64,000 nt of DNA, from NCBI GenBank assembly GCA_028532915.1, contig JAQQAI010000051.1:62001-126000 (forward strand). The letters run 5' to 3'. This DNA comes from Sphaerochaetaceae bacterium (GTDB lineage: Bacteria > Spirochaetota > Spirochaetia > Sphaerochaetales > Sphaerochaetaceae). The first letter of the stretch is position 1; every line of letters begins with the position of its first letter. The position numbers were made by a program, and so were the translations under genes. A model generated the notes under the pieces. It worked only from the letters and a program-made list of their open reading frames with translations, made no database searches and was not told where the DNA came from. Positions 48,494 through 53,227 of this stretch are shown here, in pieces.

Positions 48494-48528
48494 CAAAAAA
48501 CAAGGGCTCCAACCAGTGAAGCCCTTGC
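48494..48528 (-). terminator. terminator of the 1559-residue protein gene
   Basis: On the minus strand CAAGGGCT and AGCCCTTG form the stem (48520-48527 and 48501-48508) and TTTTTT follows. It lies between the large gene and mutL, so mutL needs its own promoter or read-through. Confidence 0.88.
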
Positions 48529-48547: not shown

Positions 48548-51500
48548 TCAGAAGATTCTGATGTTAGCTCCGATTGAGAGGTAGGGGGAGATATCGGTGT
48601 AAGTGGTCCCATTATAGGTACCATCCGAGGTCTGAACAGCATAGGTTCCAATCGATGCATTGAGATCGACAGGACCCTGACTGATCGTTGCCCCGGCCCT
48701 AATGACACTTTCAGGAGCTATGGCGAAAGTGAGTAATCTGTTGAGCAGATCATCAGATGATCCTAAGAAAGTCTGAGCCGCATCGATGAGACCCGTTCTC
48801 GCATATGTCGCCGACAGTGTGACCCAGTCAAGGTCGACCGATCCCTGAAGCTGGATCAGATCCTCGTCTTCGATCAAAGAGAAGGAGGTAGTCATAGGTA
48901 CCGAATACATAGCGTTCAGCTTGAATGCATCACCTTCATAACCAAGTGAAGCAGAAGCTGTGTAGGTCCTTCCATCACTTGTTGTTGGATCGGCCCAGGC
49001 AGCATCAAAGTCTGCCAGGATAGATGCTCTGTCTCTGGAGAACAGAGAATTGAACATATTATTGGAAACGGCTCCTTCCTGCATCGACACTTCGACTCCG
49101 GCAGAGAATCTGTCTACCTGTGACGAGAAGCCTGCGTGGAACATATAGTTGTTGAATCTCGCCAGGAACGAAGAGACTGAAGAGTTATAGAACATCTGGC
49201 TGAATCCGTCTGTTGTATCGTATCCGACAAGAGTCGTGAATCCGCCGTAGACACTGAGTTTGTTTGTTTCCTTATCGATGATAGGCAGCACACCTTCTAT
49301 TGTCGGAAGGATATCGAACTGTTTCTCCGAGCTGCTCAGTTTTGCACTGACGACTCCTGAGAGGTTCAATTCGGCTCCATAGTTCTCGAACGGAGAGATG
49401 CCGATATTCATCGCACCGAGCTGCCATGTCGTAAGATCGTTTACATACATTTCCAGATCAACATATTTCGTATCAATAGAGCTTTCAAGAGCCAGTTTAC
49501 TCTGAAGTTCGCTGTCAACAAGAGAATCCATCGAAGAGATCAGTGGTCCCATTGAATAGGTGTTCTCCCGGGAGAGTTCGAAGAAGTTTTCGCTGGAAGT
49601 ATCCCCGATGGTAACGTGATCGATCAGCGATGCGATATCTGTCACGATATCGAATGTCTTACCCAACGTCGAACTGTAACCGGAGGAGAAGCTGTACGGG
49701 GAAGAGAGTGAATGATAATAGAGAGAAGGAGTTTCCGGGGCTACTGTCAGATGAGGACCGATTCCAACCGAGAAGTTTTCATCGGAAACAGTCAGCGTAG
49801 GGTCGATTGAGATATAGTTATCATCACTGCCGCTTACGAAGCCTCTGGTGTAGGAAGTGCCGAGATCAAATGAGACATCCAGAGAATCTGCACTCTCGTA
49901 TTCTACCGGTTCGATGAACTCAACGTTTTTGCCAAGATCCAGTGTAGTTCCGATTGTAGCTCTCGATGTTCCGTCAGTCAGGAATGAAAGGTCTGCGTAT
50001 AAGGTGAAGATTCCTTCAGTGTAGCTTACAGACACATACGGGTAGGCTAGAGTGTCTTCTGTAAGAAGCGTGAGTGTGTCTGAAAGAAGTCCTTCGAACC
50101 CGTCGGAGAAGTCGAGGATATCGCTGAAGGCACTGATGAAGCCAACCCGTTCGATACCGATCTCTCCGGTATAACCGTTGCCGGAATAGCTCATCGATAT
50201 TGAAGCTATATCACCCGTGACTGATGAATCGCTGTCGAGCGGAACGATTCCCGTGAAATCGTCGGTGACTGGAACCTGGTAGCTTGCATTGAAGCTGACT
50301 TTATCCCCTGTATAGGTACCGGATGCCAGGAATGTGAAGTATAATCCTGTATCTTCCAGCATCCTTGTCCCGGAGAAAGCCGTGGAGTTGAGTGACCCGA
50401 AGGCTACCATCGGATCATCATAGTTCTCGGCGGATGCCAGGAATGTCAGATCCCAATTAAGGGTTCCGATATTCAATCCCCCGGTTATCTGGAAGTTGCT
50501 GAACTGATCCAGAAGTGTAGCTCCTGTAGAATCATACAGGGGAGTGATACTGAACGGAGCGATATCGAAGGTAGTCGTAAGTCCCGAGAATAACGTTACC
50601 TGCAATGTTCTGGTGTCTTTGAGAGCCCACTCGAAATCGATGGTAGGATACGCTGTGATATCATCGAGCGTTCTGCTTGCATTGATCACCGATCCGAGAG
50701 AAAGGGTGAAAGATGGAAGAATCTCGTAACCGACATTGACTCCTCCGTTCTGGAATCCTGAAGAGGCTATGTCAGTGAGGTACATATCATCTACGAATGC
50801 TTCGAGGGATAATTTCCCCAGCCTGGCTTTTGCATACAGTCCCAGATTCTCTTCGTAAGGACCGCTGGCGACAGCAAGGTCATTCACGATATATCCGTTA
50901 TTGTAGGTGATGGGTGAACTATCATCCATCACAACGTAGAAGTTGTCGTTTTCGTCCCCGACATAGAAGTAATCGACAAATCTGAGAATGCCTCTTAATG
51001 TATTGACGGTTCCTGATCCTATCGTCAGGTTGTTCACATCACTCGAAAGCGGAGCGAACAGGGAACCGCTTGTCAGGTAGAAGGCCTGAAGGCCCAATCG
51101 TGTATTCGCGATCTGGATGTAGGGGTTGATGGAAATACCTGTCTTGATCGATTCATTCGAGAGTACATTATCCTTCGTCGCTACAAATGACGTTTTAATT
51201 CCGTAGTCTAAGATGAGAGGAGGCTTTTCACTGCTTGTCGTGATCTTCGTTTCGGAAGTTTTTACTTCAAATTCGGCAACCTGCTTCTCCTGCTCTTTTT
51301 CGGGAGCTTCAGCCACCTGCTTTACAGGTTCCTTCACCGCAGCAGCGGGTGACGCAGAGATTTCGACAGTTTTTTCCGCAACCTCTTCAACCTTGTCAAT
51401 TGCAGCATAAGATTTTCTCAGGGAACTGATATAGGTGCTGACTATCGGATCATCACTTACTTTATCGATATTGAAAGCCTGAGCGAGAGCGGACTGTTCA

Positions 51501-53227
51501 GGGTTATTGATATCATCATCTGTGACAGTCACAGCATAGATGCCGTCAAGTTCTCCATTGATAACCTTCAGCTCGACAATCCCGATACTCGAAAGTTTTT
51601 CTCCAGCATTCACGATGTAGGTATCATCTACTCTTCTTCCACCGTCTTGTGCATCTGCCTCGGTACCGGCAATAATCAGGTCGAGACCTTTGATGTTTTC
51701 AGCTATATAGTCGATCGTGATATCGAGGGAGGAAGGGAGATTTCCAAGAAGAACCACAGCATCAGACCTGTCTTTGAGAGCGTCGACCAGAGCCTGTCCA
51801 TCCTCTTTGAATGATGATGAATAGAAGATCGTATCTTCGACTGAAGTCTCGGGAGCACTGATGCCGATAACTGCAACCTTGAATCCTTCAAGATCATAGA
51901 TCTTGTAACCGTCAAAAAGATTATTTCCTTCCGCATCAAAAACATTTGCGGCAAGAACATCCAGATATTCGTTCTCTCTGGCTTCACGTGCCTGTTCTAC
52001 CAGAGTGTCGATACCAAATGCATACTCTGCGGTTCCCGGTGCGATTGCATCATATTGAAGGAGCTGCAGCAGGGTGGATATGCTCTTTCCTGAGTTGAAG
52101 TCGGAGAGGGCGGTTCCTGCTACACTGTTTCCAGCATCAAGAATCAGATTTCTATCTGAAACTTCTTTTCCCCATTTTATAAGTGTGGAGAGTTTGGCAA
52201 ACGATATCCCGCTTTCTTCAATAGCACCCATCATGTCGTTGGTATGCACTATGTACACACTGAATTCCTTATCCTGTTTGCGCTCAGATGCCGAAGTCAT
52301 CTTGGCCGTAGTTTCAGCTGTTTTCACGGGTTCGGGTTCAACGGCCTTCACGGGTTCGGGTTCAACAGCCTTCACAGGTTCGGGTTCAACGGCCTTCACA
52401 GGTTCGGGTTCAACAGCCTTCACAGGTTCGGGTTCAACGGCCTTCACAGGTTCGGGTTCAACAGCCTTCACAGGTTCGGGTTCAACAGCCTTCACAGGTT
52501 CGGGTTCGACGGCCTCGGTTTTTTTTGCTGATTCATAGGCGGTAGAGGGTGTGAGGATCGTTATTCCGTCCTGAACAGAAGCACTTGGAAGCAGACTGGA
52601 AACGGAGCGTTCTTGCGCGATTGATAAAGAGTTATATGTCTGCTTTGAGATAGGTTTCTGGCTAAGGAAAGGGTCTGCCAGATCAAGATAATGGAATGGA
52701 GAGAGTGTCGTCCTGTCACGGGTGATAGTGTTGGTCACATCAACCGAACTCCCTAGGGAAAATATGAGTTCGGAAATATCTGAAGAGACAAACAATTCAG
52801 TCGAACCGGTTGCAGAGTAGATTCCTACCGGGGTATTGACCGTCAGCTTCTGAGCGGATTGGGAGTCCATCAGAAATGATGCACTTCCTGCTACCAGATA
52901 GAATTTCAGATGCTTCTTGTTGTTGGATACCACAGATAAGATTGATTCTCTTTGCAAAACTATGGTGATATCGCTGCTCTCGATAGTCACCGGATCCATC
53001 CCGGAAAGTACGACCCACCCGTCATCAAGGGCGAGGGGTGATTCTGTCGATTCAACATAAACACCTTTTTCATTGAATTGAAGCACATCGGATTCGGTTG
53101 CTCCCACTACATGCAGATAAGTCAAATTGCCTGAGGGTGAAAGGGCAAATGCGGGCAATGTGACTGTAAGTAAAACCATTGCCACTACGACTGCTATAAC
53201 ATTCCGTTTTGTCTTATTCTTTATCAT
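48548..53227 (-). CDS. giant exported fusion: FecR-like, repeat linker, inactive 5'-nucleotidase-like, beta-barrel-like
   Basis: A 1559-residue protein. Parts: signal peptide to about residue 28 (AVVVAMVLLTVTLPAFA); beta-rich FecR-like region (about 30-200); eight copies of AVEPEPVK (about 238-302); a UshA/5'-nucleotidase N-domain-like region (about 320-575) recognisable from IVHTNDMMGAI, LILDAGNSVAG, APGTAEYAFG, VAVIGISAPET and LIIAGTEAD; a charged linker with KEPVKQVAEAPEKEQ; and about 870 residues of amphipathic strands ending in IGANIRIF, a terminal Phe as in outer-membrane barrels. Of the usual metal ligands only the first Asp remains (GNHE is GTAE, GGD is AGN). It is probably an outer-membrane or surface protein without phosphatase activity. 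Transcribed alone, with its own terminator. Confidence 0.8.
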   Translation of the reverse strand: MIKNKTKRNVIAVVVAMVLLTVTLPAFALSPSGNLTYLHVVGATESDVLQFNEKGVYVESTESPLALDDGWVVLSGMDPVTIESSDITIVLQRESILSVVSNNKKHLKFYLVAGSASFLMDSQSAQKLTVNTPVGIYSATGSTELFVSSDISELIFSLGSSVDVTNTITRDRTTLSPFHYLDLADPFLSQKPISKQTYNSLSIAQERSVSSLLPSASVQDGITILTPSTAYESAKKTEAVEPEPVKAVEPEPVKAVEPEPVKAVEPEPVKAVEPEPVKAVEPEPVKAVEPEPVKAVEPEPVKTAETTAKMTSASERKQDKEFSVYIVHTNDMMGAIEESGISFAKLSTLIKWGKEVSDRNLILDAGNSVAGTALSDFNSGKSISTLLQLLQYDAIAPGTAEYAFGIDTLVEQAREARENEYLDVLAANVFDAEGNNLFDGYKIYDLEGFKVAVIGISAPETSVEDTIFYSSSFKEDGQALVDALKDRSDAVVLLGNLPSSLDITIDYIAENIKGLDLIIAGTEADAQDGGRRVDDTYIVNAGEKLSSIGIVELKVINGELDGIYAVTVTDDDINNPEQSALAQAFNIDKVSDDPIVSTYISSLRKSYAAIDKVEEVAEKTVEISASPAAAVKEPVKQVAEAPEKEQEKQVAEFEVKTSETKITTSSEKPPLILDYGIKTSFVATKDNVLSNESIKTGISINPYIQIANTRLGLQAFYLTSGSLFAPLSSDVNNLTIGSGTVNTLRGILRFVDYFYVGDENDNFYVVMDDSSPITYNNGYIVNDLAVASGPYEENLGLYAKARLGKLSLEAFVDDMYLTDIASSGFQNGGVNVGYEILPSFTLSLGSVINASRTLDDITAYPTIDFEWALKDTRTLQVTLFSGLTTTFDIAPFSITPLYDSTGATLLDQFSNFQITGGLNIGTLNWDLTFLASAENYDDPMVAFGSLNSTAFSGTRMLEDTGLYFTFLASGTYTGDKVSFNASYQVPVTDDFTGIVPLDSDSSVTGDIASISMSYSGNGYTGEIGIERVGFISAFSDILDFSDGFEGLLSDTLTLLTEDTLAYPYVSVSYTEGIFTLYADLSFLTDGTSRATIGTTLDLGKNVEFIEPVEYESADSLDVSFDLGTSYTRGFVSGSDDNYISIDPTLTVSDENFSVGIGPHLTVAPETPSLYYHSLSSPYSFSSGYSSTLGKTFDIVTDIASLIDHVTIGDTSSENFFELSRENTYSMGPLISSMDSLVDSELQSKLALESSIDTKYVDLEMYVNDLTTWQLGAMNIGISPFENYGAELNLSGVVSAKLSSSEKQFDILPTIEGVLPIIDKETNKLSVYGGFTTLVGYDTTDGFSQMFYNSSVSSFLARFNNYMFHAGFSSQVDRFSAGVEVSMQEGAVSNNMFNSLFSRDRASILADFDAAWADPTTSDGRTYTASASLGYEGDAFKLNAMYSVPMTTSFSLIEDEDLIQLQGSVDLDWVTLSATYARTGLIDAAQTFLGSSDDLLNRLLTFAIAPESVIRAGATISQGPVDLNASIGTYAVQTSDGTYNGTTYTDISPYLSIGANIRIF
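52323..52514. repeat. eight tandem 24-bp coding repeats
   Basis: Eight in-phase copies of a 24-bp unit encoding AVEPEPVK on the minus strand. Copies differ only at a few synonymous positions (ACGGCC/ACAGCC, CGGGTT/CAGGTT), so the array expanded recently and can change length by slippage without frameshift. Confidence 0.95.

Follow-up and report, generated by a model that had tools for sequence, protein, structure and literature searches.

Two predicted barrel domains can be found in one outer-membrane protein chain. In GfcD, according to the account in PMC11494523 (citing Solan et al., 2021), two unlike barrels of 12 and 13 strands are separated by a periplasmic domain. OmpM of Veillonella combines a peptidoglycan-binding periplasmic stalk with a porin (PMC10628300). 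A third point of comparison is the group of 5'-nucleotidase-type phosphoesterases represented by UshA, CD73 and SoxB. The giant protein described here is encoded in a 64,000-nucleotide stretch of DNA from a Sphaerochaetaceae bacterium (the window). It shares with GfcD, as that protein is presented in PMC11494523, the presence of two predicted barrel domains in one chain, so the kind is not new; unlike GfcD in that account, its two units are homologous, follow directly on one another and have about 16 long strands apiece, and it adds an arm containing a FecR-like head and a pseudo-nucleotidase. With OmpM it shares a putative periplasmic arm joined to a porin-type barrel, whereas OmpM has a peptidoglycan-binding stalk and neither a pseudo-enzyme nor a duplicated barrel (PMC10628300). 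The N-terminal phosphoesterase fold is common to UshA, CD73, SoxB and the giant protein, but the latter is without six of the seven metal ligands, both catalytic residues and the 5_nucleotid_C domain. None of the literature searched describes a FecR-like head combined with a pseudo-nucleotidase and two adjacent homologous units, and searches on Sphaerochaeta FecR, spirochaete FecR-barrel proteins and bacterial pseudo-nucleotidases turned up nothing on the giant protein.

The giant protein has 1559 aa in the ORF reading of the window (48548–53227, minus strand), and its gene is laid out as follows.

48548..53227, minus strand: whole gene, 1559 aa, no cysteine
53144..53227, minus strand: Sec-type signal peptide, residues 1–28, MIKNKTKRNVIAVVVAMVLLTVTLPAFA, read from the sequence
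52583..53143, minus strand: FecR-like head, residues 29–215 (weak Pfam FecR match; collinear with FecR of syntenic relatives)
52323..52515, minus strand: extended Pro-rich linker (VEPEPVKA)n, an 8-copy array of a 24-bp repeat
51410..52267, minus strand: catalytically dead UshA-type phosphoesterase domain, residues 321–606 (profile, PDB, Foldseek and alignment)
51203..51409, minus strand: second linker, residues 607–675, without a 5_nucleotid_C domain (Pfam), fast-evolving in relatives
49913..51202, minus strand: predicted barrel unit 1, residues 676–1105 (model, Foldseek, hhalign, unit tree and strand pattern)
48551..49912, minus strand: predicted barrel unit 2, residues 1106–1559, ending in LSIGANIRIF (model, Foldseek, hhalign, unit tree and strand pattern)
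48500..48528, minus strand: strong terminator-like hairpin of 12 pairs plus a T run, between the giant gene and mutL (sequence)

A preliminary description of this DNA had reported the ORF and its coordinates, its motifs, the terminal Phe and a repeat linker, all of which are as described, the linker being the array at 52323–52515. The signal peptide and the C-terminal aromatic residue are consistent with an outer-membrane location. Promoter scans returned matches no more often than chance.

Most Sphaerochaetaceae genomes, and many of the other Spirochaetia examined, have a gene with this barrel unit directly upstream of mutL. Upstream of the giant gene in the window lie genes for a TtcA-like ATPase and an HD-domain protein, an order that is widely kept. 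Co-transcription with mutL is not implied because the terminator-like hairpin stands between the two genes. The mutL-linked proteins of other Spirochaetia have the locus, a FecR-like head and the barrel unit in common with the giant protein, but they mostly contain one unit (two in G039) and no nucleotidase domain. Within Sphaerochaetaceae, every intermediate between the simple and the full architecture can be seen. Single-unit proteins lack the dead domain in G004, G006, G023, G024 and G025 and contain it in G005, G020 and G035; two-unit proteins lack it in G022 and contain it in the window genome and in about nine more, some of them divided between contigs. The preliminary description had proposed a search of other spirochaetes for the same architecture; its full form was seen in other Sphaerochaetaceae, and the relatives examined outside the family have no nucleotidase domain. 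By these comparisons, the giant protein is the form that a FecR-plus-barrel gene, present upstream of mutL throughout the spirochaetes, has taken on by elaboration in Sphaerochaetaceae. The picture of a protein "built on" a nucleotidase domain has to be given up, since its core consists of a FecR-like head and a barrel, into which only some Sphaerochaetaceae have the dead domain inserted. The locus exposes a class-wide spirochaete family of putative FecR-plus-barrel outer-membrane proteins, with the unit single or directly duplicated, that was not found in the literature searched.

Other variants of this locus were seen. In several spirochaete families the FecR-barrel gene is immediately preceded by a second barrel-type gene of about 460–490 aa (L103 3100–4464, L095 3139–4515, L097 2921–4372, L099 4440–5825, L045 4782–6254, L049 8322–9740); this second gene had no Pfam match in the three cases scanned and forms its own clade beside the single-unit barrels. 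The head and barrel are apparently split into two overlapping ORFs in G013, G033 and G030 (L080, L087, L075). Several small genomes (G036, G021, G014, G008, G010, G012, G027, G055) have no FecR-barrel gene, and in these mutL directly adjoins the ttcA-like gene (loci L076, L078, L079, L085, L086, L088, L109, L106). The G005 gene is not broken by internal stops; its ORF ends after unit 1, and mutL starts 25 bp later.

In the giant protein, Pfam FecR (PF04773) scores 17.2 and 14.1 bits (E 0.007–0.07), short of the gathering score of 24, and the FecR-like head of the preliminary description is therefore weak for the giant protein alone. The assignment gains some support from position: the head passes the Pfam FecR cut-off in four scanned relatives from other families, and the head profile aligns collinearly with the FecR heads of syntenic relatives (E 6e-4, probability 28.5%). 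The predicted model of the head (pLDDT 57.5) is weaker than that of the tail. The Pfam scan of the giant protein found no peptidoglycan-binding domain.

The phosphoesterase relationship of residues 321–606 is far beyond chance. NCBIfam profiles for SoxB (E 2e-22), Nt5e (3e-20) and UshA-like proteins (3e-19) match the domain, a phmmer search of the PDB gives a best E of 9e-9, and the fold is present in the predicted structure (AF2), which Foldseek matches to UshA/CD73 with E 5e-17. The UshA-like fold proposed earlier is thus borne out by three agreeing lines, including the structure prediction. The site can be read position by position in an alignment with live relatives, using UshA residue numbers and roles. 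Among the ligand positions, D41 corresponds to D331 and is kept, whereas H43 is M333, D84 is N367, N116 is T399, H217 is N496, H252 is T522 and H/Q254 is A524. One of seven metal ligands is therefore kept, the same count of six changes that had been made from the letters alone. The catalytic dyad is lost as well (H117 is A400 and D120 is A403), and PF02872 (5_nucleotid_C, the nucleoside-binding C-terminal domain) is absent in a Pfam scan of the giant protein. Because the ligands and dyad are lost and PF02872 is absent, the giant protein has the nucleotidase fold but, on its sequence, would not belong to the enzyme family. The domain is dead by the loss of ligands and dyad in all 10 of the FecR-barrel proteins read.

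Loss of the site has not been accompanied by loss of the fold residues. A set of 19 live domains has 44 columns with conservation of at least 90%; in the dead set, the seven catalytic columns are lost, and the live residue is still the majority in 35 of the 37 non-catalytic columns. Several replacements are themselves conserved among dead domains (N367 in 11/11, A403 in 10/11, N496 in 9/11), and few dead-specific conserved residues occur outside the site. Purifying selection acts on the dead domain in HGW-Spirochaetae-2 and -4, the closest orthologue pair, of which the window protein is not a member: dN/dS is about 0.10 in the dead domain, against 0.06–0.08 for the barrel units and values of 0.14 and 0.25 for the linkers. 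Synonymous sites are saturated in pairs with other relatives. These observations leave scarcely any credit to the idea that the domain is a decaying, functionless remnant, which could account for the loss of all ligands but one but not for fold residues kept across several genera, conserved replacements and a dN/dS of about 0.10.

The dead module is shared with a second protein of the same genome. The lipoprotein G000:C92 (L042 5576–8380) contains a dead domain, then a live domain, then PF02872, and its neighbours include a xanthine/uracil permease-family gene (Xan_ur_permease) and a phosphoribulokinase/uridine-kinase-family gene; other genomes have one or two dead copies ahead of the live one. 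The first domain of G000:C92 is dead in like manner and groups with the FecR-barrel dead domains. Unlike the giant protein, G000:C92 has a live domain and PF02872, is a lipoprotein by its lipobox, and has no barrel. In a tree built without the catalytic columns, eight dead domains of FecR-barrel proteins group with four of lipoproteins (93/92), and this clade is joined to the live domains of the same lipoproteins (96/90). A single clade of FecR-barrel dead domains is rejected, with p-AU 0.0007 when all ten are taken and 0.009 for the main lineage's eight; these p values are optimistic because the groups had been chosen with a tree already in view. A common origin of every dead domain is recovered with the catalytic columns (91/96) and not without them, and is not rejected (p-AU 0.16). 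Because the FecR-barrel copies are not one clade, the dead module probably moved or was converted between FecR-barrel and lipoprotein genes, or was recruited more than once.

The tail (residues 676–1559) is a tandem duplication of one unit of about 440 aa, the two copies being homologous with hhalign 99.9% and E 6e-33. Its AF2 model, built from 9 sequences, is of moderate confidence (pLDDT 69.6, pTM 0.49); counting strands at least eight residues long, it has 16 and 15. The PDB matches listed by Foldseek are outer-membrane proteins, mostly barrels (FecA, LptD, MOMP, OpdK, AlgE), with a TMt to single barrels of about 0.4. Even-odd hydropathy alternation in the strands, which are taken from the model itself, lies 10.6 sd above within-strand shuffles. 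The modelled tail is thus similar to outer-membrane barrels, and closed barrels are likely. Foldseek, hhalign and the unit tree agree on two homologous barrel-type units in one chain. The strand-rich tail ending in Phe had been described correctly; its duplication, the conserved locus and the dead module in the lipoprotein are additions to the preliminary description. Whatever the role of the dead domain, the tail might instead form one very large barrel of more than 30 strands, as some top Foldseek matches are large barrels (LptD, FecA) aligned over both halves; this seems unlikely, as those alignments have an rmsd near 30 A against 11–12 A for single-unit ones, lone units exist in G004, G006, G020, G023, G024, G025 and G035, and the G005 protein stops after unit 1. 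The two units of G039 pair with each other in the unit tree, which suggests a separate duplication there. An origin of unit 1 by fusion of the neighbouring barrel gene of about 460 aa is unsupported, the neighbours forming their own clade (100/99).

Domains N-terminal to a barrel normally face the periplasm, and the preliminary label "surface protein" goes beyond these data. With somewhat better than even confidence, we favour a twin barrel in the outer membrane from which a long arm extends into the periplasm, with the dead domain as a non-catalytic binding or scaffold module of that arm. The two tandem homologous units would sit in the outer membrane, and the arm would consist of the FecR-like head, the extended Pro-rich linker, the dead nucleotidase-fold domain and the second linker. 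The dead domain would be kept, without catalysis, as a folded module for binding or scaffolding a partner close to the outer membrane. Because the module also precedes the live nucleotidase of G000:C92, the likeliest partner would be nucleotide-salvage machinery or whatever the dead domain of that lipoprotein binds; the partner is a guess, and the link to nucleotide salvage is suggestive. The earlier proposal, that what was once an enzyme has become a binding or structural component of an outer-membrane protein, is supported by an erased site with fold residues kept in every FecR-barrel homologue examined, by the purifying selection in one close pair and by the outer-membrane-barrel-like tail. 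As a natural example this is a clean one: an enzyme domain that has lost nearly all of its active site, has stayed folded under selection and has apparently been put to new use in an outer-membrane protein, and that can be compared with a live relative of the module in the same genome. A bacterium would here have turned a dead enzyme into a building or docking part of its cell envelope.

The main competing explanation, which is unlikely but carries some weight, is an envelope tether: the head would hold peptidoglycan or an inner-membrane partner, the Pro-rich linker would span the periplasm, and the dead domain would be a rigid spacer in an OmpM-like tether plus channel. Relatives that lack the dead domain have head, Pro-rich linker and barrel in the same order, the stalk and porin of OmpM provide a precedent, and the scarcity of dead-specific residues outside the site fits a spacer. 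A plain spacer, however, needs neither a module shared and apparently exchanged with a nucleotidase lipoprotein nor the low dN/dS of the dead domain, and the anchoring end rests on the weak FecR assignment, with no peptidoglycan-binding domain found by Pfam. It is quite improbable that the domain has kept the ability to bind a nucleotide, nucleoside or metal, by some new mode, and serves the barrel as a sensor or as a catcher of substrate. The fold is predicted intact, and the live relative adjoins purine/uracil-type permease and uridine-kinase-family genes, but the nucleoside-binding PF02872 of UshA is absent and the metal ligands are gone.

The binding or scaffold role favoured here can be extended to a decidedly doubtful proposal, in which the mobile pseudo-nucleotidase module, shared between the twin barrel and the nucleotidase lipoprotein, is the docking part of a spirochaete nucleotide-uptake complex. 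If true, such a docking module would couple nucleotide breakdown to nucleoside entry through the barrels, with a dead enzyme as the foundation of the uptake complex.

Two or more tandem nucleotidase-like copies also occur in the nucleotidase proteins G004:C1:792293-795412, G126:C1, G147:C1 and G148:C2. The first two copies in the G004 protein are both dead and do not differ from each other over the aligned domain. In the tandem nucleotidase of G023 (L060 4500–7334), the first domain is intact except for N116, which is changed to E, and possibly represents an early stage of inactivation.
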